23,469 bases of DNA from a virus: positions 1 through 23,469 of IMG/VR virus record IMGVR_UViG_3300020468_000076; one strand, 5' to 3'. Below the pieces are notes generated by a model, which saw only the letters and a program-made list of their open reading frames with translations, was not told the origin of the DNA and made no database searches. Positions 4,334 through 23,469 of the stretch are shown here, piece after piece; the stretch's first letter is position 1, and each line of letters begins with the position of its first letter. The translations under genes were made by a program, and so were the position numbers.

Positions 4334-4718
4334 ATTTGAATATTCTCTCACTACATATCTCAATGGCATAAACTTAAAACAAGGTAACATTCAAGACGAT
4401 GAACGTGCCATGAAGAAGTACCCAAAGTTTGTAATAAACAAGTGTATGTCTGACTATATTGACTGTATTATGTACAGTAATGAGATGAACAGATATTATG
4501 AATTAGATAACGATCTTCAATATAATTTTTATCTATATAGTATTAGGAAATCGAAGAGGTTTTCTCCCTGGAATAAAAAATCGACAGATAATGACCTAGA
4601 ACTTGTCAAAAAGTTCTACGGATATAGTACCGACAAGGCACAAGATGCATTGAAACTACTGAGCAAGGGTCAACTTGAAGTCATCAAAGCGAAACTTAAT
4701 GTTGGAGGAAAAAAATGA
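4326..4718 (+). CDS. 62: Clamp loader small subunit, gp62
   Basis: A 130-residue protein starting MDKFEYSLTTYLNGINLKQG. It is placed immediately before regA, where gp62 lies in T4-like phages. gp62 binds the gp44 tetramer to form the clamp loader and has no ATPase motif of its own, consistent with the lack of one here. It is shorter than T4 gp62 (187 residues), as is common in marine relatives. Identification rests on position, size, and features such as the KRFSPWNKK segment and the helical C-terminus. It overlaps dam by 8 bases and regA by 4, so translation is probably coupled. Confidence 0.85.
   Translation: MDKFEYSLTTYLNGINLKQGNIQDDERAMKKYPKFVINKCMSDYIDCIMYSNEMNRYYELDNDLQYNFYLYSIRKSKRFSPWNKKSTDNDLELVKKFYGYSTDKAQDALKLLSKGQLEVIKAKLNVGGKK
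4704..4708 (+). promoter_or_regulatory. Strong Shine-Dalgarno site of regA
   Basis: GGAGG followed by six A residues lies just before ATG 4715, inside the 3' end of gp62. It is the strongest ribosome binding site in this operon. In T4, RegA represses its own and other early mRNAs at the initiation region, so this A-rich start is a plausible autoregulatory target, but a RegA site is not demonstrated. Confidence 0.7.
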
Positions 4719-5134
4719 CTGATGAGATCTCTTGGTCTCAGGATATGATGTTAGAAGTGACTTTGAAGGAACCTGATGACTTCCTAAAAGTCCGTGAGAC
4801 CCTTACTCGTATCGGTGTAGCGTCCCGAAAGGACCATAAACTATATCAATCCTGTCACATATTACACAAAAAAGGCAAGTATTATATAGTACACTTTAAA
4901 GAACTGTTTGCGTTAGATGGGAAACCAGCAAACATCACTAAGAATGATGTTGAAAGACGTAACAGAATTGCTAAGTTACTATTTGATTGGGGGTTAGTAG
5001 ACTTCCAAGCAGAAGAATTAACAGAGGTAGCACCATTGAATCAAATCAAGGTACTATCATACAAAGACAAGGCAGACTGGATCCTTGAATCCAAATACAA
5101 CATAGGCAAAAAGAAAGTAGTAGCAGAAACATGA
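4715..5134 (+). CDS. regA: RegA translational repressor of early genes
   Basis: A 139-residue protein with clear similarity to T4 RegA: LEVTLKEPDDFLKVRETLTR matches EITLKKPEDFLKVKETLTR, and LYQSCHILHKKGKYYIVHFK is almost identical to the T4 LYQSCHILQKKGLYYIVHFK segment. The C-terminus ending near KYNIGK matches KYTIGN. RegA binds the initiation regions of early phage mRNAs and blocks ribosome access, including those of gp45, gp44 and its own. The N-terminus is about ten residues longer than in T4. The start is supported by the GGAGG site and the overlap with gp62. Confidence 0.96.
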   Translation: MTDEISWSQDMMLEVTLKEPDDFLKVRETLTRIGVASRKDHKLYQSCHILHKKGKYYIVHFKELFALDGKPANITKNDVERRNRIAKLLFDWGLVDFQAEELTEVAPLNQIKVLSYKDKADWILESKYNIGKKKVVAET

Positions 5135-6806: not shown

Positions 6807-8248
6807 AATTCTTAGGATTAAGAATTGATGATCATGATTCCAACATTACATATACTGATGGTAAAACAGTAAAGTATTGTGCAACTGAGCGTCTTTTCGG
6901 CATTAAACACCATGGATACGATAACATTTGGCAGTGGTCAGATGTACTAGATTCTTGGGGTGTAAAATTGAGTGACATAGATGCTATTGCATTGATCACA
7001 GACAACATAGTATTTGCAGAGAACGAAAATTATAGAGATTTAGACTTAGGACTGCCATGTAAGACGTATGCAGTCGACCACCACTGGGCACATGTGTTGA
7101 GCACATGGATGCTTGGTGACATACCCAAGGTAAACTATGTGTTTGATGGGTTTGGGAACAATGATAGGTCACATTCACTGTATTTGAACGGTAAATTAAA
7201 GAGTTCACACAGTGTCAAGAAGACTGGTTCTATCGGTGTTGAAATGGCATATGTAGGTAAGACTTGTGGGTTCACAGCAGACGAGTGGGGACTAGATTTA
7301 GCAGGAAAAGTGATGGGATTGCAGTCATATGGCATGAATGAACCCAACTACTATAACCTGATGGATCAGTATAGTATTGAAGAGATCAAACAAATCTGGA
7401 ACTATGACTCTTGGATTAGAAAATGGGATAATGAGTTCGATATTAACTGGTTACGCACCGTACATGAGATAACTGGTGACAAACTGGTAGAGTACATGAC
7501 TCGCACTGGTGATGGACCTATAACATATACTGGTGGTGTAGCACAAAACTCTGTATTCAATGGAAAACTGCATGAATCAGGCATAGATGTACGAATTCCA
7601 CCTCATGCTAACGATTGTGGACTATCACTAGGTGCAGTAGAATTTTTAAGACAGAAGTTCCATGAAGAACCCTTCGATACTACTGGGTTTCCCTTCTGGC
7701 AGGACGATGAAGCACCCGAAGAACCCACTGATAAGACCATTACAGAGGCAGCGGAGTCACTTGCACAGGGTAAAATCGTTGGTTGGTACCAAGGTCATGG
7801 TGAGATAGGTCCAAGAGCACTAGGACACCGTTCTATCCTTGTAAACCCCAGATTACCGAACGCTAAGAACCATTTGAACAAACAGGTCAAGCATAGAGAA
7901 CACTTCCGACCCTTCGGTGCTGCGGTACTACTGGAAGATACACAAAAATACTTCGAGTTTAACGGTAAGAGTCCATATATGAACACATGTGCATACGTTC
8001 ACGACGAAGAATTGTTGTCTGTGACACATGTAGATGGCAGCAGTCGCATACAAACAGTGGAGGGTGATGATTGTTTCGCTAAGTTGCTTCGTAAGTACAA
8101 AGAACTGACAGGTGACTCTGTTTTACTCAATACATCACTGAATATGGGTGGTAAACCAATAGCATCTAAGATGTGGGAAGCGAAAGAACTGTTCTCTAAG
8201 AAGGGAATTGAAGATATGTTTATTGGAAATGATAAATTGTCTAAATAA
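6803..8248 (+). CDS. Carbamoyltransferase (NodU/CmcH/TobZ family)
   Basis: A 481-residue ATP-dependent O-carbamoyltransferase. The family converts carbamoyl phosphate plus ATP to carbamoyl-adenylate and transfers the carbamoyl group to a hydroxyl, usually on a sugar or secondary metabolite. The N-terminal Kae1-like domain shows the VDHHWAHVLSTW metal motif (His93, His94, His97) and GGVAQNSVFNGKL (about 244-256). The C-terminal domain shows GWYQGHGEIGPRALGHRSIL (327-346), FRPFGAAVL and SVLLNTSLNMGGKPI. It is shorter than typical bacterial members (about 550-600). The start is TTG 6803, because the GLRIDDHDSN strand that opens the fold begins right there and no upstream ATG exists. The acceptor in phage infection is unknown; host glycans or modified bases are possible. 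Confidence 0.92.
   Translation: MKFLGLRIDDHDSNITYTDGKTVKYCATERLFGIKHHGYDNIWQWSDVLDSWGVKLSDIDAIALITDNIVFAENENYRDLDLGLPCKTYAVDHHWAHVLSTWMLGDIPKVNYVFDGFGNNDRSHSLYLNGKLKSSHSVKKTGSIGVEMAYVGKTCGFTADEWGLDLAGKVMGLQSYGMNEPNYYNLMDQYSIEEIKQIWNYDSWIRKWDNEFDINWLRTVHEITGDKLVEYMTRTGDGPITYTGGVAQNSVFNGKLHESGIDVRIPPHANDCGLSLGAVEFLRQKFHEEPFDTTGFPFWQDDEAPEEPTDKTITEAAESLAQGKIVGWYQGHGEIGPRALGHRSILVNPRLPNAKNHLNKQVKHREHFRPFGAAVLLEDTQKYFEFNGKSPYMNTCAYVHDEELLSVTHVDGSSRIQTVEGDDCFAKLLRKYKELTGDSVLLNTSLNMGGKPIASKMWEAKELFSKKGIEDMFIGNDKLSK
8241..8247 (+). promoter_or_regulatory. Possible late promoter (CTAAATA)
   Basis: CTAAATA overlaps the carbamoyltransferase stop and differs by little from the T4 late -10 element TATAAATA. 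In T4 geometry transcription would begin around 8253, 17 bases before ATG 8270. The same string occurs before the gene at 23153 and, within CTAAATATAG, before hsp20. T4-like late promoters have no -35 element, so the support is thin and the motif is AT-rich enough to arise by chance. Confidence 0.35.
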
Positions 8249-8269
8249 AGGTGCATACGGTATGCATTT
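8247..8269 (+). promoter_or_regulatory. Possible split ribosome binding site with hairpin
   Basis: AAAGG (8247-8251) is followed directly by a palindrome, TGCATAC/GTATGCA (8252-8258 and 8260-8266), then TTT and ATG 8270. The linear distance from Shine-Dalgarno to ATG is 18 bases, too long. Folding the palindrome (6 bp stem, CGG loop) would bring AAAGG within a few bases of the start. T4 gene 25 is a known example of an initiation region using an intervening stem-loop this way. It requires read-through mRNA from upstream. Confidence 0.45.
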
Positions 8270-8665
8270 ATGGCAGAAGCAAAGGAAAAACCAAAAGGTA
8301 TCATCGGCAAGATTAAAGAGAGTGTTGATGACAAAGAGGAACAACTAGCATACTTATCTACACTGATAAGAGTTATAGTTTTAGTGTGGTCCGCAGGGAT
8401 ATTGACGTTAAACTACGTTAAAATACCAGGATATGAACAGGGAGACAAAATTGATCCAACTTTCATAGCTTCGGTCTTCACAGGAACATTAGCTACTTTT
8501 GGTGTCGCTGCGGGAGGTAAGAAAAAGAATGGTGAGAACGGTGGTAGTGCTAACATATCTAAAAAAGATATGGAGTTTCTTATCGCTAAGGCATCAGAGA
8601 CTGCTCCTGCTCAAACTATCAGGATAGAACAAGGTCCTGTTAAAATTGTCCCAGATTCAAAGTAA
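8270..8665 (+). CDS. Two-pass membrane protein, holin-like topology
   Basis: A 131-residue protein with a charged N-terminus (MAEAKEKPKGIIGKIKESVD), a first transmembrane helix (IRVIVLVWSAGILTLNYV, about 33-50), a second (FIASVFTGTLATFGVAAG, about 65-82), then a KKKNGENGG linker and a charged tail. Two helices with charged ends resemble class II holins, and the gene starts a membrane-protein cluster that may be late. No lysozyme gene is adjacent, so a lysis role is only a possibility. Confidence 0.75.
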   Translation: MAEAKEKPKGIIGKIKESVDDKEEQLAYLSTLIRVIVLVWSAGILTLNYVKIPGYEQGDKIDPTFIASVFTGTLATFGVAAGGKKKNGENGGSANISKKDMEFLIAKASETAPAQTIRIEQGPVKIVPDSK

Positions 8666-8669
8666 AATC

Positions 8670-8885
8670 ATGCAAAAGATTATTAATGCGATTGCTATCG
8701 CAAGTGGTGTAGTGGCACTCGGAGTCGTAGGACTCGGTGGATATGTATTCATCCGTAAGGATGCTATCATTGAAGATGTTAAGTCCAAAATCACAGAAGC
8801 AGCACTCGGTTCAGTAACCGATTCACTTCCAAGCATGAGTAAAGACATCATGCCTGATCTAACAGGACCAGCACTACCATTCTAA
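8670..8885 (+). CDS. Small single-pass membrane protein
   Basis: A 71-residue protein with an N-terminal hydrophobic helix (IINAIAIASGVVALGVVGLGGY, then VFIRKD) and a soluble tail ending GPALPF. The frame is open from a TTG at 8646, but ATG 8670 is preferred because it gives a compact membrane-anchor N-terminus and does not overlap the preceding gene. The hydrophobic helix could be an uncleaved anchor or a signal sequence; no clear cleavage site is seen. I do not recognise the family. Confidence 0.7.
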   Translation: MQKIINAIAIASGVVALGVVGLGGYVFIRKDAIIEDVKSKITEAALGSVTDSLPSMSKDIMPDLTGPALPF

Positions 8886-8889
8886 GACC

Positions 8890-9447
8890 ATGAAAGGTAA
8901 GAATATACTAATAGCGACTGTGGGTGGCATAATAGGTCTCTCACACATCGGTATGATAGGACTGCTCGTTGCACGAGTGGGAGTTAAAGACCAGATACCA
9001 GTTCTTAGTCCACCAGTAGGACCATATACCTCTTACATAGCATCTGCAAGCAAGAGTGGGTATAAGATACAGTATCAAGCGAATGACCCTAAAACTATGG
9101 TCAAGAGCACAGCAACCAAGGTCAAAGGTTTAACAAAAACAACAGAAAAGACTGTTGTAGATGAGTATACAATGGATGGTAAGACCCATTTAGGTGTACT
9201 AGGTATGAAAGAAGCGGGTGCACTCAACGTAGCATGCATCAAGGCAGAAGGTGGTGGTGAACAGACAGGAAAAGTAGTAGGTGCTAGTGTTGGTGCTGCT
9301 GCTGGTTCACAGGTAATGAGTGTACCATTTGTAGGTCCAGTTCTAGGAGGTCTTGTAGCACTAGGTGCCACTAATAAAGGTGGTGACATAGGTGGTCAAT
9401 TAGCGATGGAATGGAGTGAAGCATGTGACCCTGATACAACCGATTAA
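8890..9447 (+). CDS. Membrane-anchored glycine-zipper protein
   Basis: A 185-residue protein. Residues 5-29 form a hydrophobic anchor (ILIATVGGIIGLSHIGMIGL then LVARV). The middle is Lys/Thr-rich (KSTATKVKGLTKTTEKTVVD). Residues about 126-170 are Gly/Ala-rich (GKVVGASVGAAAGSQVMS, then GPVLGGLVALGATNKGGDIG), a glycine-zipper type hydrophobic segment that can pack into or across membranes. The tail is acidic. It is co-directional with its neighbours and overlaps the next gene slightly. It could be a virion or membrane-penetrating protein; this is inference from composition. Confidence 0.72.
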   Translation: MKGKNILIATVGGIIGLSHIGMIGLLVARVGVKDQIPVLSPPVGPYTSYIASASKSGYKIQYQANDPKTMVKSTATKVKGLTKTTEKTVVDEYTMDGKTHLGVLGMKEAGALNVACIKAEGGGEQTGKVVGASVGAAAGSQVMSVPFVGPVLGGLVALGATNKGGDIGGQLAMEWSEACDPDTTD

Positions 9448-10234
9448 TATACACGATGTCAATGTATTTGACATAACAGTGCCCCCGATCACGCAGAGAT
9501 ACAGCGTGACCCCAGGGGCATTGCCATTTTATAACCCAGTAACAGTACCAGTTGGTGTACCTTTGATTCTAATGCCTGGATGTGTAGAAGCACACCCAGA
9601 AAGTAAACCACAGAACCCAAATAATAAGTTAGTCAAGGATGATGAGGACGGAGCAAAGGTATATTGTGATGCTGGTATGCCATCCTTTGATGCGATGGAC
9701 TATACACCAGAGAATTTAATAATACAGAGAGAAATAGAGACACCTGTGGTAGATGTACCACCCCCACCAGAGACACCAGAAGTAGAAGCACCAGATATAC
9801 CACCCACAAACGAAGAAGTTCCCTGCCCTGGACTAAATGCACCTAGAATAGGTGACATAGCGCAGAACAAGGAAGAAAAAGTATCAGGTTTTGAATTACA
9901 GACTGACCCTATAACTAATAAGGAGATCTGTGTGACATTGTATGAGGATATACCAGCGTTAGAAGCACTATTACCAGACGTTCAGACAGTGAGTACCACA
10001 GCAGTCATAGCAACAGTTGCTACGGGATCTGCTCTCCTAGCGAAACCTCTTGCAGACCTGTTGTTGAGGGTTTTTCGCCCCGCCATAAAGAAGGGAGTGA
10101 CCACTTTCCAAACCAAGGTTTTGAAGAAGGCACCGAGGCAGTTAAGTCGTTCTGAGATCCAGACGAATCATTATAGGAAATCGAAAGGTCTTGATCCTTT
10201 TTCTCTTCCGAAGAAGAAGAAGGCGAAGGAATAG
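9425..10234 (+). CDS. Proline-rich, C-terminally membrane-anchored protein (possible virion protein)
   Basis: A 269-residue protein. It has an N-terminal beta-rich segment (YSVTPGALPFYNPVTVPVGV), a long Pro/Glu-rich linker (about residues 109-134, with VPPPPETPEVEAP), a hydrophobic segment near residues 190-215 (TAVIATVATGSALLAKPLAD) and a very basic tail ending PKKKKAKE. I recall proteins with this SVTPGALPFYNPVTVPVGVP start in marine T4-like phages, often called structural, but cannot verify it. GTG 9425 is chosen because GGAG (9413-9416) lies 8 bases upstream; a GTG at 9416 is the alternative. Its last 215 bases run antisense to the end of the minus-strand gene at 10020. Confidence 0.75.
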   Translation: MTLIQPINIHDVNVFDITVPPITQRYSVTPGALPFYNPVTVPVGVPLILMPGCVEAHPESKPQNPNNKLVKDDEDGAKVYCDAGMPSFDAMDYTPENLIIQREIETPVVDVPPPPETPEVEAPDIPPTNEEVPCPGLNAPRIGDIAQNKEEKVSGFELQTDPITNKEICVTLYEDIPALEALLPDVQTVSTTAVIATVATGSALLAKPLADLLLRVFRPAIKKGVTTFQTKVLKKAPRQLSRSEIQTNHYRKSKGLDPFSLPKKKKAKE

Positions 10235-10829
10235 AATGAACGTGTGGTTTCACTACATGTACACCGTCCACTATGACATCAGCACACACCTTATGATATG
10301 GTGACTTTTTGTGGAACCGAATTCCTGCCTTGTATAGTTCACCGCAGTTCTTTAATCTCGCGATCTCAAAGTCTAATCTTTTGTTGGCAATTAATTGTGT
10401 TTGTAATGATATCTGTGTCTCTACTGCTTGTTTACATTGCTCTTGTGCCTTTGTGTCTAGTGGTATTGACCATGTTGCAGACACACCAAGAGACAGGGCA
10501 AGTTGATCCTTCTGACCTGTACGAGTAGGCATGTAGTAGAGTATATTTCCTGGGTTATCTATCTGACCGTCATCATCAGCGTCATGTATGTCGTACACTG
10601 GATCATCCCAATAATCTTCGTATGGTTTCTGTCCAGAAATTGATCCAGTAGCATAGGGAGTTATGTTGAGGGTACTCCCTTGACACTGTATACCACCACC
10701 ATATGTGTTTGTTATATACGGTCCTTGTAAAACTTGAATAGCTTGGTTGGTCACTGACCCACTGCTATTAGCGATGGGCGATGCAGTAGCACTAACACCA
10801 CCAACAGTTTCGGCACGAACACTAGGCAT
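10020..10829 (-). CDS. Exported protein of unknown function, start unclear
   Basis: From ATG (10827-10829) this is a 269-residue protein. The mature-like region begins ETVGGVSATASPIANSSGSV and includes YGGGIQCQGSTLNITP, a DDDGQIDNPG Ca-binding-like loop, RTGQKDQLALSLGVSATWSI and a coiled LDFEIARLKNCGEL region. The last about 70 residues are Ser-rich. Directly before it, in frame, the sequence reads KRHRHNQYLSAIGISLAITG then FMPSVRA, a textbook signal peptide, yet no ATG, GTG or TTG occurs before it for about 60 codons. So either an unusual start (ATA 10857-10859, overlapping the previous stop) or a frameshift is involved, or the signal has been lost. Third gene of the minus-strand arm. Confidence 0.7.
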   Translation of the reverse strand: MPSVRAETVGGVSATASPIANSSGSVTNQAIQVLQGPYITNTYGGGIQCQGSTLNITPYATGSISGQKPYEDYWDDPVYDIHDADDDGQIDNPGNILYYMPTRTGQKDQLALSLGVSATWSIPLDTKAQEQCKQAVETQISLQTQLIANKRLDFEIARLKNCGELYKAGIRFHKKSPYHKVCADVIVDGVHVVKPHVHSIPSPSSSSEEKKDQDLSISYNDSSGSQNDLTASVPSSKPWFGKWSLPSLWRGEKPSTTGLQEVSLGEQIP

Positions 10830-10855
10830 AAACCCAGTGATAGCAAGGGATATCC

Positions 10856-11284
10856 CTATTGCTGAAAGATACTGGTTGTGTCTGTGACGCTTTGGATAGT
10901 GGTGGTTCTCTGGATCACGGTGTGATTTGCCAGTCCTGGTCCACTGTATGTTTCTGTGAATTGGAAGTTCGCACCTGGCGTTGTTTGTGTAAACGTCGGT
11001 TTTGTATCCACTCCTGTCCATGTTGAAGCAACTCCTTCAATAGTTACATTATTACTTGTAGTTGTTGGTGATAGATTACCAGATGCTGTAACACCAGTGC
11101 CTGTTGCAGACCACTGATACCCAGTATTATAATCCATCGAATTTATAGTCTCAGTGACTGTCGTAGTCGTCTCAGTGTGAGACGTCATACTACCTTGTGT
11201 AAAATTGGGCACCACAGGCACTGCAAACACTGGGTTTGCACCCATGGCGAAGCATACAAGAAGTAGTTTTATGTTACTCCTCAT
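10856..11284 (-). CDS. Exported Thr/Ser-rich beta protein with signal peptide
   Basis: A 142-residue protein. Residues 1-21 form a signal peptide (MRSNIKLLLVCFAMGANPVF then A) with an AxA-like end. The mature part is rich in Thr, Ser, Asn and Gly (HTETTTTVTETINS, then TGTGVTASGNLSPTTTSNN), with no Cys and an expected beta structure. The segment PTFTQTTPGANFQFTETYSG parallels PTLSATQATAGESWSFTQSF in the gene upstream, suggesting divergent paralogs. It is 9 bases from the preceding gene, with AGG before the start. The likely destination is periplasm, outer membrane or surface of the infected cell, or the virion. No family is recognised. Confidence 0.75.
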   Translation of the reverse strand: MRSNIKLLLVCFAMGANPVFAVPVVPNFTQGSMTSHTETTTTVTETINSMDYNTGYQWSATGTGVTASGNLSPTTTSNNVTIEGVASTWTGVDTKPTFTQTTPGANFQFTETYSGPGLANHTVIQRTTTIQSVTDTTSIFQQ

Positions 11285-11293
11285 ATGTCACAC

Positions 11294-11800
11294 CTATCTT
11301 ATTGTTAATTCACTGACCACCTGTCCAGTCGCTTGTGTACCAGCACCACCAGCAACAACCGCAATGGTTCCGCTTGTGTCGATTGTACCCGCTAGGTTAC
11401 CCACTGTTCCTGCTGCTGTTGATACTTGACTGGAAAAGTTTCCAACCTCACCAACAGTCGGTGCACTACCTGATATAGCATCACCTTGGGTGAATGACTG
11501 AGTAAAGCTCCAACTCTCCCCTGCTGTTGCCTGGGTCGCTGATAACGTAGGTATAGCACCAACACCTGATGAGATAGTCATACTACCTATGGATGATGTT
11601 GCACTACCGCCTGTTGGTGTGTACTGTGTGGTCACATTGTTACCACTTACAGAGTACGTTGAACCAATACGCTCAACCTGAGTTGCTGCTGCATTAACGG
11701 TTAACTGAACTGATGAACTTAACTTATGTGTAATGTCTGCATTAGCAGCACCTACACCTAAGAAAGGCATCATACCGAAGAAGATTAATAATCGTTTCAT
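11294..11800 (-). CDS. Exported Ser/Thr/Gly-rich protein with signal peptide
   Basis: A 168-residue protein. Residues 1-22 form a signal peptide (MKRLLIFFGMMPFLGVGAAN then A) with likely cleavage after ANA before DITHKL. The mature part is a low-complexity beta-type sequence (YSVSGNNVTTQYTPTGGSAT, then SSIGSMTISSGVG) with a Gly/Ala-rich end (VVAGGAGTQATGQVV). It is the first gene of the minus-strand arm, 24 bases downstream of TATAAATA, so probably late-expressed. GAAGG lies upstream of the ATG at a longer than usual distance. Sec-type export of phage proteins is uncommon outside lysis and superinfection-exclusion genes. Function unknown. Confidence 0.77.
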   Translation of the reverse strand: MKRLLIFFGMMPFLGVGAANADITHKLSSSVQLTVNAAATQVERIGSTYSVSGNNVTTQYTPTGGSATSSIGSMTISSGVGAIPTLSATQATAGESWSFTQSFTQGDAISGSAPTVGEVGNFSSQVSTAAGTVGNLAGTIDTSGTIAVVAGGAGTQATGQVVSELTIR

Positions 11801-11824
11801 GATTTTTTATACTACCTTCACCCA

Positions 11825-11832
11825 TATTTATA
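11825..11832 (-). promoter_or_regulatory. T4-type late promoter TATAAATA, minus strand
   Basis: The plus strand reads TATTTATA at 11825-11832, which is a perfect TATAAATA on the minus strand, the T4 late -10 element recognised by gp55 with the gp45 clamp. Transcription would begin near 11819, leaving a leader of about 18 bases before ATG 11800. It is the only exact match I saw placed before a gene, and points to late expression of the three exported proteins. Confidence 0.65.
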
Positions 11833-11880
11833 CTTAGTAGAATTACAGTTTTCCGTACTTGTAAAAACAGTAAATGTGTA

Positions 11881-11911
11881 CTAAATATAGGTAGTTGCCT
11901 TCGGGGACTAC
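11881..11911 (+). promoter_or_regulatory. hsp20 leader: possible late promoter plus hairpin
   Basis: CTAAATA (11881-11887) resembles the late -10 element. Just downstream GTAGT (11891-11895) pairs with ACTAC (11907-11911), with an inner CC/GG pair closing a TTCG loop (11900-11903), giving a compact hairpin. The Shine-Dalgarno GGAGA (11931-11935) lies 20 bases beyond and is not part of the stem. There is no U-run, so it is not an intrinsic terminator. It could stabilise the mRNA or tune hsp20. Confidence 0.4.
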
Positions 11912-11938
11912 AAACAAACTCGCTTACAAAGGAGAACC

Positions 11939-12373
11939 ATGAGAACATTAAACTTCTCGTCCAGAGATATGGACAAGATCTTTGACGCTGCAATGACATA
12001 CAGCGTTGGATTTGAAGATCTATTCAACAGGATGCATTCATCGGCATCAATCCACACATCTTACCCACCATATAATATAGTCAAAGAGACTGAATCAGAG
12101 TGGAGAATCGAGATGGCACTAGCAGGATGGTCCAAGGATGATATAGAAATTAGTACAGAAACTAATATCCTAACCATTAAGTCTAAGGTAGAACAGGAAT
12201 CAGATGGAGACTTTATCCATCGTGGAGTTGCCAAGAGGTCATTCACTAAGACATTTAACATCGCAGATGATGTAGAAATAGGTGACATCACATATGAAAA
12301 CGGACTATTAAACATCAAACTTACTAAGATAGTTCCAGAGAGTCAGAAGCGTAAAACCTATGACATAAAGTAG
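11939..12373 (+). CDS. hsp20: Small heat shock protein Hsp20 (alpha-crystallin family)
   Basis: A 144-residue chaperone that would hold unfolding proteins in a refoldable state. The alpha-crystallin domain spans about residues 42-135: YPPYNIVKETESEWRIEMAL (start), AGWSKDDIEISTETNILTIK, then FIHRGVAKRSFTKTFNIADD and YENGLLNIKL, the last matching the conserved A-x-xx-NGxLxI/V motif of the family. The C-terminal IxI-type anchor is weak (KIVPESQKRKTYDIK). The gene has a strong GGAGA site before ATG 11939, its own leader and its own terminator, so it is an independent unit. Hsp20 is a hallmark of T4-like cyanophages and is thought to assist capsid assembly or protect host photosystems. Confidence 0.95.
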   Translation: MRTLNFSSRDMDKIFDAAMTYSVGFEDLFNRMHSSASIHTSYPPYNIVKETESEWRIEMALAGWSKDDIEISTETNILTIKSKVEQESDGDFIHRGVAKRSFTKTFNIADDVEIGDITYENGLLNIKLTKIVPESQKRKTYDIK

Positions 12374-12387
12374 TCTATATAATAGAC
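12373..12387 (+). other. Small inverted repeat after hsp20
   Basis: GTCTAT (12373-12378) and ATAGAC (12382-12387) form a 6 bp stem with a 3-base loop starting at the last base of the hsp20 stop codon. It also contains TATAAT (12378-12383), but no -35 is apparent. It sits 5 bases ahead of the terminator and may protect the mRNA 3' end. Confidence 0.4.
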
Positions 12388-12392
12388 AACCG

Positions 12393-12416
12393 AAGAGACC
12401 CCCAGTGGTCTCTTTT
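12393..12416 (+). terminator. Intrinsic terminator after hsp20
   Basis: AAGAGACC (12393-12400) pairs perfectly with GGTCTCTT (12407-12414) around a CCCAGT loop, ending in a T tract (12413-12416). This is a strong rho-independent terminator separating hsp20 from the replication genes that follow. Confidence 0.85.
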
Positions 12417-12431
12417 CTATTGGAGAATTTT

Positions 12432-12674
12432 ATGAACATGTATGTCAATCTGTGTCCTGCATACACACAGAAGAGTGACTCAGTAACTATGGATGTCCCA
12501 AATGACATGACAGAATACTTTATGCAATATGTGTATACCTTATCTGATGAAAAGAACATATCCGCTAGACGAGCGTTCAATGATATGCTAAGATATACAT
12601 TTGACACCCTTATGGAGAAAGATTATGAGCGCAAGAGTCGTAAGAATGCTAAACGGAGAGGACGTAATCGCTGA
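12432..12674 (+). CDS. Small hypothetical protein with basic tail
   Basis: An 80-residue protein starting MNMYVNLCPAYTQKSDSVTM at ATG 12432, with GGAG (12422-12425) 6 bases upstream. The middle looks helical (MTEYFMQYVYTLSDEKNISA, then RRAFNDMLRYTFDTLM) and the C-terminus is very basic (YERKSRKNAKRRGRNR), suggesting RNA or DNA contact. It opens the second replication operon and overlaps the next gene by 50 bases. I do not recognise it. Confidence 0.72.
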   Translation: MNMYVNLCPAYTQKSDSVTMDVPNDMTEYFMQYVYTLSDEKNISARRAFNDMLRYTFDTLMEKDYERKSRKNAKRRGRNR

Positions 12675-12966
12675 CGTCAAGGAAGTTCGTGAATCTAACG
12701 ACGGTCCTGCACTTGCTTATAAACTTACGCAACCATACACCGTTACAATTTCACAACCTCCCGAGGTCACGTTTGAAACTGATGAAGAAACAGCGATAAC
12801 AGACTTCACACATCTAGATGTAGAGTTCACAGTCTATGTACCATTCAGTGCAGAAGACCATGTGTTTTTACCTCTACCATCTGTGATGTTTATCTACAAA
12901 CCATCAGAGAATCTTGTAGAAAAGTACAATCAATTACTAGATCATGGTAAAACTAATCCTGCTTAA
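12625..12966 (+). CDS. Small beta-rich protein, possibly Sm-like
   Basis: A 113-residue protein starting MSARVVRMLNGEDVIADVKE at ATG 12625, with GGAG (12614-12617) 7 bases upstream. The opening LNGEDVIADVKEV recalls the first strands of Sm/LSm-like folds (xxGxxVxGxV), and the later part (FLPLPSVMFIYKPSENLVEK) fits a closing strand. The next gene seems to have the same layout, so the two look like divergent paralogs. An RNA- or protein-binding role near gp43 is possible, but not shown. Confidence 0.72.
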   Translation: MSARVVRMLNGEDVIADVKEVRESNDGPALAYKLTQPYTVTISQPPEVTFETDEETAITDFTHLDVEFTVYVPFSAEDHVFLPLPSVMFIYKPSENLVEKYNQLLDHGKTNPA

Positions 12967-17265: not shown

Positions 17266-18647
17266 TGCCAAGCATAGAAACTATTGCAATCAGTAAACTC
17301 ATTACCAGTGAGGAATACACACGCAAAGTATTACCTTTTATAAAGGAAGATTACTTTGAAACACTGGACATGAAGACCCTGTTCGGTGAGATAAATGATT
17401 ACTTTACAAAGTATGATCAGGTACCTGAGATCAATGCCTTAAAAATTGAGATAGATAAGAGGAAAGATCTTAGTCAGGAGATTGTAACAGAGATTGAGAA
17501 GTTTCTTGACGAAAGCATCGACAATCAACAATATAATGATGACTGGTTAGTAGAGACCACAGAAAAGTGGTGTAAAGAACGTGCTATCTATCTTGCTCTA
17601 ATGGATAGTATTAAGATTGCTGACGGTCAGGATAAAACACGTCAAAAGGATGCCATTCCACACATAATGTCGGAAGCATTAGGCACATGTTTTGATGAAA
17701 CAGTAGGGCATGATTACATACAGGACGCAGATGAAAGGTACGACTTCTATCACAAAAAAGAAGACAAAATTCCATTCGATCTTGAATACTTCAACAAGAT
17801 TACAAAAGGTGGTTTACCTAGCAAGACTCTCAATGTCGCACTTGCTGGTACAGGTGTCGGGAAAAGTTTATTCATGTGCCACGTCGCTAGTTCCTGTCTC
17901 ATGCAGGGGAGGAACGTTCTCTATATTACACTTGAAATGGCAGAAGAGAAAATTGCTGAACGAATTGACAGCAACCTTCTCGACGTCCCGATCAAACAGT
18001 TAAGTGACCCTCTGTTTAGTAAGCAACAGTTTAGAAATAAAGTAGATGTATTAAATAAGAAGACACAAGGTAGGATAATTATAAAAGAATACCCAACAGC
18101 ATCAGCACATGTAAATCATTTCAAATCATTATTGAATGAGTTGTCTATGAAGAAGGGATTCCAACCTGACATTGTGTTCATTGATTATCTAAACATCTGT
18201 GCGAGTGCTAGATATAAAGGAACCATCGTAAACTCATACACTTTTGTTAAAGCGATTGCAGAAGAACTCCGTGGTCTTGCAGTTGAATGCAATGTACCAA
18301 TCGTCACTGCTACTCAGACTACTCGTGCGGGTTATGGGAGCAGTGACGTTAGTCTTACTGACACAAGTGAGTCTTTCGGTCTCCCTGCAACTGCTGACCT
18401 TATGTTTGCTCTTATTTCTACCGAAGAGTTAGAACAACTAGGACAGATTATGGTCAAGCAGTTGAAGAATAGATATAATGACCCTACCATACACAAACGT
18501 TTCATTGTCGGTATTGACAGAGCGAAGATGAGGTTGTATGATTGTGATCAGAAAGCACAAGAGGATATTGTTGATGCAGGGGACACCCTCAAAGACAACT
18601 TCCTTGAACTCAAAACTCAAAACAAATTTGACGGTTTTAAAATATGA
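17265..18647 (+). CDS. 41: Replicative DNA helicase gp41 (DnaB-like)
   Basis: A 460-residue hexameric 5'-3' helicase that unwinds ahead of gp43 and works with the gp61 primase. The N-terminal about 130 residues form a helical DnaB-type domain. The C-terminal RecA-like core has Walker A AGTGVGKS (194-201), VLYITLEMAEEKIAERID as motif H1a and PDIVFIDYLNI as Walker B. ATQTTRAG is motif H3-like, and QLKNRYNDP plus RFIVGIDRAKMRLYD form the C-terminal strands. Length matches T4 gp41 (475). It starts at a TAATG overlap with the oxygenase and overlaps the next gene by 4 bases. Confidence 0.95.
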   Translation: MPSIETIAISKLITSEEYTRKVLPFIKEDYFETLDMKTLFGEINDYFTKYDQVPEINALKIEIDKRKDLSQEIVTEIEKFLDESIDNQQYNDDWLVETTEKWCKERAIYLALMDSIKIADGQDKTRQKDAIPHIMSEALGTCFDETVGHDYIQDADERYDFYHKKEDKIPFDLEYFNKITKGGLPSKTLNVALAGTGVGKSLFMCHVASSCLMQGRNVLYITLEMAEEKIAERIDSNLLDVPIKQLSDPLFSKQQFRNKVDVLNKKTQGRIIIKEYPTASAHVNHFKSLLNELSMKKGFQPDIVFIDYLNICASARYKGTIVNSYTFVKAIAEELRGLAVECNVPIVTATQTTRAGYGSSDVSLTDTSESFGLPATADLMFALISTEELEQLGQIMVKQLKNRYNDPTIHKRFIVGIDRAKMRLYDCDQKAQEDIVDAGDTLKDNFLELKTQNKFDGFKI

Positions 18648-19288
18648 CTAAAAGAGAAGACGTAAACGTCGATTACAATAGTGCTGACAAAGCATCAAAG
18701 GCAGCAGAGAATGTCATGAATCACATGCAAGATGTGAAGGAGGGTATGTCTGACAATGCCAAGAAGGTTGCAGAGGACACACCTACCACACCCGAAGAGT
18801 TTATTAATAAGAAAGGGTTCACTGCATGGAGGGCAGCAGAGGAGGTCAAGGAGAAACAGAAAGCAAAAAAAGATCAAGAAAAGTTTGCAGTTGACCTAGA
18901 CAAATACCTTGAATTTTGTGAGAATACATGTAGTAATTTCTCAAAAGATCACGCAGCATATATAAAAAGGTTGAATGATTTAAACGAACTTGGTTGTAAC
19001 ATTTCTCTTCTAGATACTGCTGCTAATGGTCTCTCTGCTGAGGCGGGTGAGTTCATGGAAATAGTTAAGAAGATGAAGTTCCAGGGTAAACCATGGGACG
19101 AAGCAAACAAGGAACATCTAATCAAAGAACTAGGTGACATCATGTGGTATGCAGCACAGGCATCGATGGCACTTGGTCAAAGACTAGATGATGTAATCTA
19201 TGTGAACACACTTAAACTTGCAAAGCGTTACAGTGGTGGAGAGTTCAACGTAAGCGATTCAGAAAACAGAGCACCCGATGACATCTAA
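18644..19288 (+). CDS. mazG: MazG-like nucleoside triphosphate pyrophosphohydrolase
   Basis: A 214-residue protein with a MazG-type all-helical domain in its second half. EAGEF (133-137) supplies the ExxE pair and KELGDIMWY (161-169) the ExxD pair that bind Mg; the YVNTLKLAKRYSGGEF end is typical of the family. MazG-type enzymes hydrolyse nucleoside triphosphates to monophosphate and pyrophosphate, and in cyanophages have been linked to (p)ppGpp or nucleotide balance. The first about 80 residues are a charged, coiled-coil-like extension (AEEVKEKQKAKKDQEKF) not needed for catalysis, possibly a contact surface for another protein. Confidence 0.85.
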   Translation: MTKREDVNVDYNSADKASKAAENVMNHMQDVKEGMSDNAKKVAEDTPTTPEEFINKKGFTAWRAAEEVKEKQKAKKDQEKFAVDLDKYLEFCENTCSNFSKDHAAYIKRLNDLNELGCNISLLDTAANGLSAEAGEFMEIVKKMKFQGKPWDEANKEHLIKELGDIMWYAAQASMALGQRLDDVIYVNTLKLAKRYSGGEFNVSDSENRAPDDI

Positions 19289-19420: not shown

Positions 19421-20734
19421 ATGGGAACGACACTAACCTCAGCAGCAGGATGGCAGAAGTATTCTTGGTATTACAAGGATGGATTCTCCTGCAATATAAA
19501 GAAAGATTTACATGTATATAAAAACGAGAAAGGGAATGATAAAGTAACCTATCTTAAAAAAGGACACCAGATAACTACAACACCGATACTAACTGGTCAA
19601 CCATCCAGAGTACATATAACCTTCGCAGAGAACATGGAAACTCGCGAAGGTTTTGTGCAGTTAGGACAACTTGGTGCAAAACCAGGTCAGATATTAAAAC
19701 AGAATTTAAAACCACAAGACTTTGCTATGCCACTTGATAAGAAGGTGTCATTCAACAAGTATTATAATGGTGTGATGTCAGCAATAGGGGAGAGAAAAGA
19801 TCTTCCTGACCCCATAACAAATTATCTAAGAGCATTGGTGAAATATTGCTATGAACATAAGGATCATCAGAACTTAAAAAAGAAATACAAGAAACTTATG
19901 GACTCTCAGTATGCGGGTACGATCAGTGAGATTGAATCAGACTTCTCTGAGATCATGGCACCTCTATGTGTACTAGAAAGAGGTCAAAGAGAGTTAGAGA
20001 AGATGGGATTCAAAGGGTTGACCAAAGAAAACACAATGATATATGTACCCAAGAAAGGTAACGAACCATTGATGGACTTTGCACTGTATGGTAAGGATGG
20101 TAGAGAGTATAAGTTCTCAGTTAAGAAAGCAACTGGTGTTACTAACACAGTCAAACCAAAAGATATAATAAAATTGATGGAAGACCTGACAAAAATATAC
20201 GAAGGTAAAGATAATTATGAGATACTAAAAGTCTTAGCAGAGAATAGTATCAAACTAGGACCAATCTATGCATTCAAAGAGGCATATAAGAGGTTTGAAC
20301 AAGTGCAGAATAAACTTAAACAGGCAGGGTTAGTCTGGAACATAGACATGATGATACCAGACAATGTTGTGCCAGATGTATTAGTGTACCAACCACAGTG
20401 GACAAAGGTTATGTCTGTATATTATAATGAAGGTATAGATTACTGGGAACAACCAGACTTTACAGATGGTCCACTAGGAGTCGTAAGTTTAACTTGTCAA
20501 ACAGCGTTGGAGAAAATGACCAAGGGAGAGAAGTTGTGGAACTATCGTGACATCATTGTTGATGTTGTAATGAAGCAAGTATCTTTCTATAAATTCAAAC
20601 TTAATAAAGGTGACCCTGAGTTCTTTATGTCAAACAATCTATATAATGATATACCAAACAACGCACAGTTCTATTTGCGTAACAAGTCATCTAAGAGCAG
20701 ACCATACAGAGAGACAGTCGGAGTACAACCATGA
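19421..20734 (+). CDS. Large unknown protein, possible PD-(D/E)XK-like core
   Basis: A 437-residue protein I cannot name. The N-terminal about 90 residues look like an SH3-type beta region (WYYKDGFSCNIKKDLHVYKN, then VTYLKKGHQITTTPILTG). The middle has a helix with Glu177 (IESDFSEIM), then PLMDFALYGKDGREYKFSVK, where Asp219, Glu229 and Lys235 could form a PD-(D/E)XK-like metal site followed by a KATGVTNTVKP loop. This is a pattern match only. The C-terminal part (VPDVLVYQPQWTKVMSVYYN) is mixed alpha/beta. It overlaps the ligase-like gene by 4 bases. Only 11 bases separate it from the previous gene. Confidence 0.8.
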   Translation: MGTTLTSAAGWQKYSWYYKDGFSCNIKKDLHVYKNEKGNDKVTYLKKGHQITTTPILTGQPSRVHITFAENMETREGFVQLGQLGAKPGQILKQNLKPQDFAMPLDKKVSFNKYYNGVMSAIGERKDLPDPITNYLRALVKYCYEHKDHQNLKKKYKKLMDSQYAGTISEIESDFSEIMAPLCVLERGQRELEKMGFKGLTKENTMIYVPKKGNEPLMDFALYGKDGREYKFSVKKATGVTNTVKPKDIIKLMEDLTKIYEGKDNYEILKVLAENSIKLGPIYAFKEAYKRFEQVQNKLKQAGLVWNIDMMIPDNVVPDVLVYQPQWTKVMSVYYNEGIDYWEQPDFTDGPLGVVSLTCQTALEKMTKGEKLWNYRDIIVDVVMKQVSFYKFKLNKGDPEFFMSNNLYNDIPNNAQFYLRNKSSKSRPYRETVGVQP

Positions 20735-21924
20735 GCAAGAATACACACCTCGAACATTTGGAAGATGATATATTTAACGATGGATATAATGGTGCACTGA
20801 ATGGCATCAACTTCTTAAACTCACTTGTAGATATGTTGACCACTGGTAAAGGTGGAAGCAACACAAAGGTTACAGTTAAATGGGATGGTGCTCCTGCTAT
20901 TATATGTGGTACAGATCCTGAGTCTGATCTGTTTTTTGTAGGAACTAAATCAGTATTCAATAAGAATAACCCAAAGATATGTTACTCACATGATGACATT
21001 GATTCTTTCTATGAAGGTGAGTTAAATGATAAGTTAAAGAAATCATTTGATCATCTATCACAGTTAGATATCAAGGGTGTGATACAAGGTGACCTCCTCT
21101 ATACAGAGACACCTCCTATCGTTACCATGGGTGGTAAGGTATGCTATAAGTTCAAACCTAACACTATCACATACTGTGTAGAGAAGAATACAGAAATGGG
21201 AAAGAAGGTAGGACACTCTGACATAGGTATAGTATTTCATACAAGATATACTGGCACCACTATTGGCACCATGACAGCAGGATTTGGTGTAGATGTATCA
21301 GGTATGCAAAATAATAAACTGATAGCAGTGTTCTCGTCTGCATTCTCTAATGTAAATGGAGTTGCAAACTTAACACCAACAGAACTATCAAGTGTAAAGA
21401 ATGATATTAGAATGGCAAAGACTAATCTACTACGCTCTAAGACATTCTTAAATGCAATAGGTGGTGGTACAAAACCATTTAGTTATGCTGCTATGTTCAA
21501 GAAGTATATAAACATCTTAGTCAGACAGAATAGTATCCCCGACAGTGCAGAGAAGATGGCAAAGGGTTACATATACTATGTTGAGAAAGAATTTGGTAAA
21601 GAAATTGATAAGAAAAAGAGTGAGAAAGGAAAAGAAACATGGCAAAAACAGAAGAAAGAGAATCTAACTTATCTAAATAGTAACAAGAGTGTCATTTTCT
21701 CTGCCCTTACTGGATTCAAACTGTTGATGAAAGCAAAGGTTAAGATTATAAATAAATTGAAGAAGATAGAAGGTGTCGGCACGTTCCTTGAAGACGAGGA
21801 TGGATACCGAGTTACAAGTCCAGAAGGATTTGTTGCTATCAAAGATGGTTCAGCAGTCAAATTAGTTGACAGACTTGAATTCTCTCGTGCAAACTTTACT
21901 GTGGCAAAGAATTGGTCTAAATGA
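20731..21924 (+). CDS. Ligase-like nucleotidyltransferase (DUF6267-type)
   Basis: A 397-residue protein with, by eye, the motif series of covalent nucleotidyltransferases (DNA/RNA ligases, capping enzymes). Motif I is VKWDGAPA (Lys50 as the nucleotidylated lysine, KxDG), motif III GVIQGDLLYTE (116-126), motif IIIa IGIVFHTRYTG (165-175), motif IV EGFVAI (365-370), and motif V AVKLVDR (375-381). The start HLEHLEDDIFNDG and the following sequence match a widespread phage family that I think is catalogued as DUF6267, of unknown function. The reaction (ligation, capping or other) is inferred and not shown. A Lys-rich insert (about 285-345) separates IIIa from IV. It is coupled by ATGA to both neighbours. 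Confidence 0.85.
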   Translation: MSKNTHLEHLEDDIFNDGYNGALNGINFLNSLVDMLTTGKGGSNTKVTVKWDGAPAIICGTDPESDLFFVGTKSVFNKNNPKICYSHDDIDSFYEGELNDKLKKSFDHLSQLDIKGVIQGDLLYTETPPIVTMGGKVCYKFKPNTITYCVEKNTEMGKKVGHSDIGIVFHTRYTGTTIGTMTAGFGVDVSGMQNNKLIAVFSSAFSNVNGVANLTPTELSSVKNDIRMAKTNLLRSKTFLNAIGGGTKPFSYAAMFKKYINILVRQNSIPDSAEKMAKGYIYYVEKEFGKEIDKKKSEKGKETWQKQKKENLTYLNSNKSVIFSALTGFKLLMKAKVKIINKLKKIEGVGTFLEDEDGYRVTSPEGFVAIKDGSAVKLVDRLEFSRANFTVAKNWSK

Positions 21925-23132
21925 GATTTCGTCAGTTCATCATAGAGGCAGAAACGCCTAAGAAGAAACCTACATCCTCTGCTAAAAAGCAAGAGGTGCA
22001 GGATAAGCACGTCGCATTTACCTTTGGACGATTCAATCCTCCTCATGCAGGACATGGTAAGATGATGGACGCAGTGAAATCATATGGTGGAGACACAGGT
22101 AATTACAGAATCTATCCTAGTAGAACACAAGATAATAAGAAGAACCCACTGTCAGCAGACCAGAAGATAAAGCACATGCGTGCAATGTTTAAAGACCATA
22201 AAGACAAGATTCAGAACAGCGAAGCACATAGAAATATATTTGACATCATGAAAGACCTTAACGATGAAGGTCATGAGCATGTAACCATGGTAGTTGGTGA
22301 CGATAGAGTCAAGGAGTTTGATAAACTCACCAAGAAATACAATGGAGTGCACTATGACTTCAAGAGTATTAATGTTAAGTCTGCTGGTAAACGTGATCCT
22401 AAGTCTGATGATCCTTTGGAAGCACTGAGTGCAAGTTCTTTGCGTAAGCATGCTACAAGTGGGGACCATGAAGCATTCCATGCTGGGACTGGTGGATATA
22501 AGAACAGTAAACAGATGATGGCAGACGTCCAAGCAGGACTAACACCAAAACAGAAAGCAGAGAAGGCAGCGAAGAAAGCGAAAGCAAAGTTAAGTACAGC
22601 AACAGGTACAAAAGAAAAGACAGTCAAGGAAACATGGGAGTATGCTCCTAAGTTAGCACTAGAAGAGTTCAGAGAGCACTATATTCAAGGTGAACTATTC
22701 GATACTGGTACACTCATAGAGCATGACAACACAGGTATTAGAGGTCACATAGTACACAGAGGAACTAATCATGTCATATTCAAGGACGAGTATGGTGATG
22801 AGTTCAAGGCATGGTTGGGAGACATTACAGAGATAGCAATGAAGACCGACAAGAAGGTTCCACTAGGACGTAAGAGTAATCCATATGGTAAGCGTGCAGT
22901 ATTGAAGATGCTTATCAAGTCAGTAGCAGAGAGAGAAAGATCCAGAGCAGGAGTAGCAAAGGAAAGTACAGACCCCAACAGGAAAGATCAGAGTAATTAC
23001 AGTGCAGACGATGGGTCAGGTAACGATTGGAAAGTAGGAACGGATAAATATAGACAGGCAGTACAGTCAATGACCCCTGGACAGGGAGTCATTAAGTTTT
23101 CTGAGTTCAGAAAGACTGTCAAAACTAAATAG
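21921..23132 (+). CDS. HxGH nucleotidyltransferase with capsid-targeting-like N-terminus
   Basis: A 403-residue protein. Residues 30-175 look like an HxGH-type adenylyl/cytidylyltransferase: AFTFGRFNPPHAGHGKMMDA carries HAGH (42-45), VGDDRV is a later strand, and ALSASSLRK (168-176) resembles the ISxTxxR phosphate loop of NMNAT-like enzymes. The first residues MRFRQFIIEA closely resemble the T4 internal-protein capsid-targeting sequence MKTYQEFIAEA, and IIE fits the gp21 protease site (I/L-x-E). A Lys/Ala-rich linker (about 208-235) leads to a C-terminal beta domain (GTLIEHDNTGIRGHIVHRGT) and a tail KFSEFRKT. The substrate (NMN, a nucleotide or other) cannot be told. It overlaps the ligase-like gene by 4 bases. 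Confidence 0.85.
   Translation: MRFRQFIIEAETPKKKPTSSAKKQEVQDKHVAFTFGRFNPPHAGHGKMMDAVKSYGGDTGNYRIYPSRTQDNKKNPLSADQKIKHMRAMFKDHKDKIQNSEAHRNIFDIMKDLNDEGHEHVTMVVGDDRVKEFDKLTKKYNGVHYDFKSINVKSAGKRDPKSDDPLEALSASSLRKHATSGDHEAFHAGTGGYKNSKQMMADVQAGLTPKQKAEKAAKKAKAKLSTATGTKEKTVKETWEYAPKLALEEFREHYIQGELFDTGTLIEHDNTGIRGHIVHRGTNHVIFKDEYGDEFKAWLGDITEIAMKTDKKVPLGRKSNPYGKRAVLKMLIKSVAERERSRAGVAKESTDPNRKDQSNYSADDGSGNDWKVGTDKYRQAVQSMTPGQGVIKFSEFRKTVKTK
23125..23131 (+). promoter_or_regulatory. Possible late promoter (CTAAATA)
   Basis: CTAAATA overlaps the stop of the preceding gene, and in T4 geometry transcription would start near 23137, 16 bases before ATG 23153. This matches the arrangement at 8241. It lacks an exact TATAAATA and could be chance in AT-rich DNA. 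Confidence 0.35.
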
Positions 23133-23152: not shown

Positions 23153-23469
23153 ATGTTAGATATTAAGATAGGATCTGTGTTACTAGGGTATAGTTTGCAA
23201 GAGCAAACCCAAATCCTAGACTGCGTTTACGGAGGAGAAGATCCAAAAACCAAGCGTATAGAAGACGCAGGCAGAGCAATCGTGGACATCATTATGAATC
23301 ACGAGGAGATTGTTGAAGGTTATGCAGGGTTCCCTGTTGAAAAGAAACTTATCGACAAGAACAAGATCAAGTTTGACAAGGATCGTAACATAGGTAGAGT
23401 GATATCACAGGGCGGAGAGTCATTTGTCATAACAGGTATGAAGAATGATGGACGCTATCAGATCATGGG
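23153..23469 (+). CDS. Unidentified protein, N-terminal fragment
   Basis: A frame starting MLDIKIGSVLLGYSLQEQTQ at ATG 23153 runs off the right edge after 105 codons. It includes a helical region (IEDAGRAIVDIIMNHEEIVE) and a later GRVISQGGESFVITGM stretch. It is co-directional with the module before it and may have its own late promoter at 23125. There is no Shine-Dalgarno consensus. I do not recognise it, and its end is outside the window. Confidence 0.65.
   Translation, partial: MLDIKIGSVLLGYSLQEQTQILDCVYGGEDPKTKRIEDAGRAIVDIIMNHEEIVEGYAGFPVEKKLIDKNKIKFDKDRNIGRVISQGGESFVITGMKNDGRYQIM

Follow-up and report, generated by a model that had tools for sequence, protein, structure and literature searches.

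A T4-like cyanophage nucleotidyltransferase with a conserved capsid-targeting sequence: a probable internal head enzyme

We analysed a 23.5-kb IMG/VR virus contig (IMGVR_UViG_3300020468_000076, positions 1 to 23,469; hereafter, the window), in which an open reading frame (ORF) at 21921..23132 on the plus strand, with an ATG start, encodes a class I nucleotidyltransferase of 403 aa and 44 kDa. This protein is likely to be a late, internal head HxGH nucleotidyltransferase of a T4-like cyanophage, tagged with a capsid-targeting sequence (CTS) and ejected with the genome. The elements of this reading are not equally firm: head packaging through the CTS is highly probable, cleavage after E9, as predicted from the sequence, is well favoured, and ejection into the cell, proposed by analogy with T4, is rather more probable than its opposite. 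The first-pass annotation had suggested packaging by a T4-like CTS, and this suggestion is now strongly supported, because the residues required in T4 are conserved, the gene has a late promoter, orthologues have been found in virions by mass spectrometry in published work, and the motif co-occurs with virion proteins.

The protein starts with MRFRQFIIEA, beside an HxGH nucleotidyltransferase core (HAGH, SASSLRK), and both elements noticed in the first-pass annotation are thus found within the same ORF. The CTS, MRFRQFIIE/A, covers residues 1–10 (21921..21950, plus strand), with a predicted prohead-protease cut at E9/A10 (bases 21947/21948), and is followed by a variable Lys-rich linker (residues 10–29; 21948..22007, plus strand; isoelectric point (pI) 9.7), which would form the N-terminus after cleavage. 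Homologues were collected in two scans of viral contigs and their starts inspected; the pattern M-x(0-3)-[F/Y/L]-x-x-F-[I/L]-x-E-A or a close variant of it, and with it the F-I-x-E start that the earlier annotation had proposed to align, was kept in 145 of the 146 homologues. Conservation was calculated on 43 divergent, non-redundant sequences. Neither F6 nor E9 varied (43/43 each, zero entropy), residue 7 was I or L in 42/43, A10 was present in 39/41, position 3 was occupied by F (38), L (3) or Y (2), and residues 2, 4, 5 and 8 varied freely. Mean entropy was 1.41 bits for residues 2–10, versus 2.63 bits for the next 20 residues, corresponding to the linker, and the distance from the start to the core ranged from 32 to 149 residues among homologues. 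The possibility that the N-terminus is conserved through overlap with the upstream gene was rejected, since the overlap is only 4 bases long, the pattern is one of amino acids and free positions lie between the fixed ones. No other ORF of at least 40 aa in the window matched the CTS regular expression, and the orthologue was the only ORF of at least 60 aa matching it in the 174-kb genome of S-SM1.

Mutagenesis of the CTS of the T4 internal protein IPIII (MKTYQEFIAEA) has assigned targeting to residues 4 and 7 and processing to residues 8 and 10 (PMC9026906). With an offset of one residue, the same positions are conserved in the nucleotidyltransferase family: the aromatic targeting residues correspond to positions 3 and 6 of the window protein, and a gp21-type I/L-x-E site lies directly behind them. 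The window protein resembles T4 IPI, IPII and IPIII in its N-terminal 10-residue CTS (MKTYQEFIAE/A in T4), its I/L-x-E site and its basic character, but the T4 internal proteins are small, act as binders or inhibitors and are unrelated in their mature parts, whereas the window protein is an enzyme of 44 kDa that is conserved among cyanophages. As a positive control, the same expression recovered IPII and IPIII from the whole T4 genome, along with a short ORF close to uvsW and two hits that seem to be internal. A 76-aa ORF overlapping the annotated end of uvsW (T4 AF158101, 114210–114440) has the CTS-like start MLLEFKQFLYEA. The L/I-x-E cleavage rule of gp21 is documented for T4, and we consider that it holds in cyanophages, because their major capsid proteins keep [IL]xE at the maturation position (FLAEA in S-SCSM1, LLTEA in S-CREM2 and ILTET in S-SM1). 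A gp21-type prohead protease is annotated in all three of these phages; the window, being a fragment, includes no head genes.

The presence of this family in virions is documented by the data of others. T4-GC190, a "putative citidylyltransferase" and cyanophage core gene, was detected in purified S-SM1 virions (PMC3037559), and GenBank labels both SSM1_190 of S-SM1 and PSSM2_194 of P-SSM2 as T4-GC190. The window protein is 40% identical to SSM1_190 and matches PHROG_395 ("cytidyltransferase") with an E-value of 1.7e-87; the similarity extends across the core and the C-terminal domain, and the locus lies after gp41 and mazG, placing the protein in the T4-GC190/PHROG_395 family. Matches to it were found in 527 phage records. 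Two further homologues were identified in virions: the cytidylyltransferase ORF154 (gp154) of S-CREM2, with 3 peptides (PMC10665884), and ORF91 of S-SCSM1, annotated as a nicotinamide mononucleotide (NMN) adenylyltransferase (NMNAT; PMC9602691). The authors of these studies proposed that the enzyme may be carried into the host, where it would affect NAD, while allowing for contamination (PMC10665884, PMC9602691). Contamination would imply that the protein is simply a metabolic enzyme of the replication module, made early or in the middle period, with an N-terminal helix serving another purpose. The gene does lie among replication genes, lysate carry-over was raised by the S-CREM2 authors themselves, and T4-GC190, although encoded by S-PM2, was reportedly not detected in the virion of that phage, in a survey that overlooked several genuine structural proteins as well. 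However, the enzyme has been detected repeatedly, in different phages and laboratories, the CTS pattern agrees with T4 mutagenesis, and both the late promoter and the enrichment of motif bearers in virion lists described below argue against contamination, which we regard as very improbable. The T4-type CTS instead accounts for the repeated finding of the enzyme in purified particles of related phages. Virion carriage of the family has thus already been published, but the CTS appears to be a new explanation for it. Where the authors of the virion studies did not distinguish carriage from contamination (PMC10665884, PMC9602691), the conserved CTS and the late promoter turn repeated detection into a specific mechanism that can be tested with a single mutation.

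The T4-type late promoter TATAAATA lies at 21747..21754 on the plus strand, inside the upstream DUF6267 gene and 174 nt before the ATG. The known cyanophage late promoter NATAAATA (PMC2984593) was found no more than 300 nt upstream of the nucleotidyltransferase gene at 57 of 75 non-redundant loci, with 0.12 expected per locus, as opposed to 3 of 67 for DUF6267, the gene next to it. Distant relatives have NATAAATA some 30 nt ahead of the ATG; the window and its close relatives have TATAAATA 174 nt upstream, over Ile-Asn codons of DUF6267. We rejected the explanation that TATAAATA is forced by a conserved I-N-K peptide in DUF6267, because these codons are ATA-AAT in 24/35 cases at the promoter site, versus 3/50 for other Ile-Asn pairs in the same ORFs (p = 7.6e-10). 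A late promoter was not found for the DNA polymerase, UvsX, gp41 and DUF6267 genes of the window. In S-CREM2, NATAAATA lies 27–30 nt upstream of gp154, gp6, gp136 and the first gene of the gp15-to-gp12 cluster. The nucleotidyltransferase gene is therefore predicted, from its promoter sequence, to be expressed late, though sited among replication genes.

A strict CTS expression, fixed before S-CREM2 was inspected, matched 3 of the 219 proteins of this phage, all three in the 52-protein virion list (p = 0.013): the S-adenosylmethionine (SAM) hydrolase (SAM lyase) gp6, the kinase gp14 and the cytidylyltransferase gp154. With a broadened motif (F or M at position 7, L at position 3), chosen post hoc after this inspection, five matches were observed among the 219 gene starts, with 0.07 expected, and all five were virion proteins. 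Two annotated genes of S-SCSM1 bear the motif: the virion NMNAT and a 106-aa protein not flagged as a virion component. Pooled over three phages, five of the six strict-motif bearers were virion proteins, versus 133 of 725 other proteins (p = 0.001), but three of these five belong to the same family, so that three independent families are represented, and the virion proteins of S-SM1 entered the count only as their published total of 41 (PMC3037559). Of three S-CREM2 virion proteins with CTS-like starts other than gp154, each encoded on the minus strand, gp6 (3837–5081) is an S-adenosylmethionine lyase (PF23780, 2.3e-19), gp12 (7704–10313), with the motif at residues 19–25, is a putative nuclease annotated as Cas9-like, without Pfam support, and gp14 (10579–12846) is protein-kinase-like.

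In many homologues, a "DGHG" module of about 45 residues (e.g., AARLGLEGDGHGGWYDRSTGEFVAKTEKGRLKFY) is inserted between the CTS and the enzyme core. The window protein and the T4-GC190/PHROG_395 members SSM1_190, S-SCSM1 ORF91 and S-CREM2 ORF154 form one family with the same type of CTS, the three named members having been detected in virions by mass spectrometry, but the window protein has its Lys-rich linker where many of its relatives have the module. A DGHG profile built without the CTS retrieved only two of the 219 S-CREM2 proteins, namely gp14, which holds two copies of the module (2.5e-18), and gp12 (3.7e-14). Each is a virion protein, and this suggests that the CTS and the DGHG module are exchanged as a unit among unrelated head-loaded proteins. 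We give an even chance to the broader proposal that a portable N-terminal module, consisting of the CTS and often DGHG, loads unrelated enzymes into the heads of T4-like ocean phages for injection. Almost every close relative would load the class I nucleotidyltransferase in this way, and the cargo of S-CREM2 would further include a SAM lyase, a kinase and a putative nuclease. If this is true, NAD or nucleotide pools, SAM and the protein-phosphorylation state would be remodelled ahead of any phage gene expression, and a motif of about 10 residues plus a late promoter would predict head cargo from sequence alone. The CTS signature would also be a means of finding other head-delivered cyanophage enzymes, as the pre-set pattern picked only virion proteins in S-CREM2, including the SAM lyase and the kinase. 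Enzymes present in the host from DNA entry could act ahead of host defences based on NAD depletion or SAM-dependent modification. A 455-aa ORF of a relative (143250–144650, minus strand) combines a DUF3008-like stretch and a SAM-lyase domain with the CTS-like FKSFLEEG at an internal position; the DUF3008-like stretch also occurs as a separate virion protein, S-SCSM1 gp93, and a small Cys-rich protein starting with MISFKEYLNEA adjoins the 455-aa ORF.

The nucleotidyltransferase core (residues 30–210; 22008..22550, plus strand) was modelled by AlphaFold2 with a confidence score (pLDDT) of about 93 up to residue 210, and the Pfam family CTP_transf_like was detected at residues 34–146 (8.9e-9), above the curated cut-off. 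The HxGH nucleotide-binding motif GRFNPPHAGH (residues 36–45; 22026..22055, plus strand) and the second catalytic motif SASSLRK (residues 170–176; 22428..22448, plus strand) are conserved, and most of their residues, namely G36, R37, N39, P40, P41, G44, H45, S170, A171, S172 and R175, are invariant in the 43 sequences. A search of PDB sequences with the core returned nothing decisive. Structure prediction, which the first-pass annotation had proposed to set against NadM/NadR, gave a class I nucleotidyltransferase fold: phosphopantetheine adenylyltransferase (PPAT), NadD and NadM were tied as the nearest structures (Z 12.7–14.1; root-mean-square deviation (rmsd) of about 3–3.5 over about 150 residues). 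The protein shares this fold and the (H/T)xGH and SxSxxR motifs with NadM, NadD, NadR and PPAT (CoaD), but is only about 10% identical to them and has in addition the CTS and a small all-beta C-terminal domain (residues 245–309; 22653..22847, plus strand). This domain, whose beta strands are seen in the model, is possibly SH3/KOW-like, judging from a weak Foldseek match to an Spt5 KOW region; it had no sequence match in PDB, and both S-PM2 and P-HM1 encode it as a protein of its own. The chemistry is most likely nucleotidyl transfer to a mononucleotide. The description of the protein as NMNAT-like holds for the fold and motifs; these are non-specific, since PPAT shares both and fits equally well, and the NMNAT equivalog cut-offs were missed by a wide margin (TIGR00482, 21.4 vs 112 bits; TIGR01526, 20.7 vs 341 bits). 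NMN or nicotinic acid mononucleotide (NaMN) is the likeliest single acceptor, with slightly less than an even chance of being the main substrate, and the weak profile hits of the protein were mostly to NMN/NaMN adenylyltransferases.

The protein may instead be another class I nucleotidyltransferase, acting, for example, with a ligase-like DUF6267 partner on nucleic-acid ends, or on a small cofactor. We consider this tentative alternative a serious one, but it falls somewhat short of even probability. It is favoured by the ranking of PPAT level with NadD and NadM, by the missed cut-offs and by the adjacent DUF6267 gene (20731..21924, plus strand; PF19782, 4.6e-126), which overlaps the nucleotidyltransferase gene by 4 bases, contains an invariant KWDGAP motif and is fused to the nucleotidyltransferase core in S-PM2. 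The model of DUF6267, a family that Pfam labels as unknown, is predicted to have a polynucleotide-ligase-like (RNA-ligase-like) fold: ligases head and mostly fill the structural list, with a Naegleria RNA ligase as the best match (Z 8.3, rmsd 3.9 over 184 residues) and T4 RNA ligases 1 and 2 at Z 6.6–6.8. However, the weak profile hits point to NMN/NaMN, DUF6267 has no CTS and its S-CREM2 counterpart (gp87) is not in the virion list, and the packaged enzyme would therefore act without DUF6267.

The mechanism that we favour for the head-packaged enzyme would be as follows. Residues 1–9, anchored by F3 and F6, would attach the protein to the scaffold core of the prohead. Cleavage by the prohead protease gp21 behind I7-I8-E9 would then release the enzyme within the shell, with a basic tail at its new N-terminus. 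The genome would next be packaged around the enzyme, which would probably be ejected into the host with the genome, like T4 Alt and IPI, and would adenylylate a mononucleotide before phage gene expression, the simplest case being the conversion of NMN or NaMN to NAD. Alternatively, the protein could be packaged through its CTS without being an injected effector, working inside the prohead or virion in core assembly or DNA condensation, or showing incidental enzymatic activity. With a pI of 9.6, the mature protein has the basic character of internal proteins that associate with DNA, and ejection is proposed by analogy for these CTS-bearing proteins; however, a purely structural role would not require the observed constraint on catalytic residues, and T4 Alt and many internal proteins are ejected (PMC9026906), making this alternative unlikely. 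T4 Alt, a head-packaged ADP-ribosyltransferase, is a precedent for an ejected enzyme with NAD-related chemistry such as the window protein would be, but has an unrelated fold and the propeptide MELITE, and it consumes NAD, whereas the window enzyme, if NMNAT-like, would make NAD or another dinucleotide. The earlier suggestion of a new kind of head-delivered effector was thus overstated: T4 Alt precedes it, and carriage of an NMNAT in cyanophage virions had been put forward in 2022–2023 (PMC9602691, PMC10665884). The literature searched, which did not extend to subscription papers, contained no report of a CTS on the nucleotidyltransferase family and none under the DUF6267 and PHROG names; the CTS, its agreement with T4 genetics, the late promoter within DUF6267 and the sharing of the DGHG module appear to be unreported in it.

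Several observations weigh against the reading of a late, CTS-tagged and ejected NMNAT-like enzyme. In addition to the missed cut-offs and the structural tie, which leaves the substrate ambiguous, the virion evidence comes from orthologues or homologues in S-SM1, S-CREM2 and S-SCSM1, rather than from the phage of the window, detection in S-CREM2 was weak and, according to its authors, open to carry-over (PMC10665884), and a neo-N-terminus at A10 has so far not been reported. The S-SM1 orthologue has the CTS but no NATAAATA within 300 nt upstream, and the S-PM2 DUF6267–nucleotidyltransferase fusion shows the reverse, having NATAAATA but no CTS; the link between promoter and CTS is therefore imperfect, and we rejected the promoter as a constant companion of the CTS. 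The distant homologues of P-HM1 (188 aa), RaK2 (178 aa) and Ettore (190 aa) consist of the core only and have no CTS. The sequences of these proteins and of the S-PM2 fusion suggest that some phages can use the enzyme without packaging it, and packaging is thus a trait of the main cyanophage clade rather than of the nucleotidyltransferase fold. Homologues lacking F-I-x-E, which the first-pass annotation had regarded as a potential refutation, are therefore confined to distant or rearranged cases.

Gene order in the replication region of the window is T4-like: sliding clamp, clamp loader, Dam, hsp20, DNA polymerase, UvsX, gp41 helicase and MazG, the names upstream of UvsX being putative and read off translations. 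After MazG come the ORF at 19421, DUF6267, the nucleotidyltransferase gene and a truncated ORF. The Synechococcus phages S-WAM1 and S-SZBM1 (Kyanoviridae) are annotated with the same gene order, and the phage of the window is probably a T4-like cyanophage of this family. The 437-aa ORF at 19421..20734 (plus strand) had no match in Pfam, PHROG or NCBIfam; GATAAATA lies 13 nt upstream, and this ORF is possibly the start of a late cluster. The downstream ORF at 23153..23467 (plus strand; PHROG_27523), which is cut by the end of the contig, has GATAAATA 110 nt upstream, and its positional counterpart, S-SCSM1 gp92, is a virion protein. Around the NMNAT of S-SCSM1, five successive genes (gp89–gp93; 36357–41835) are all labelled as virion proteins, two of them with NATAAATA about 30 nt upstream, and they constitute a late head-protein cluster within the replication region. 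The MazG-like pyrophosphatase of the window (18644–19288) has an N-terminal extension of about 80–120 residues ahead of the MazG domain. Finally, the minus strand at 10020–11800, in a region otherwise coded on the plus strand, contains ORFs with signal-peptide-like starts (e.g., MKRLLIFFGMMPFLGVGAANADITHK), which possibly encode exported proteins.

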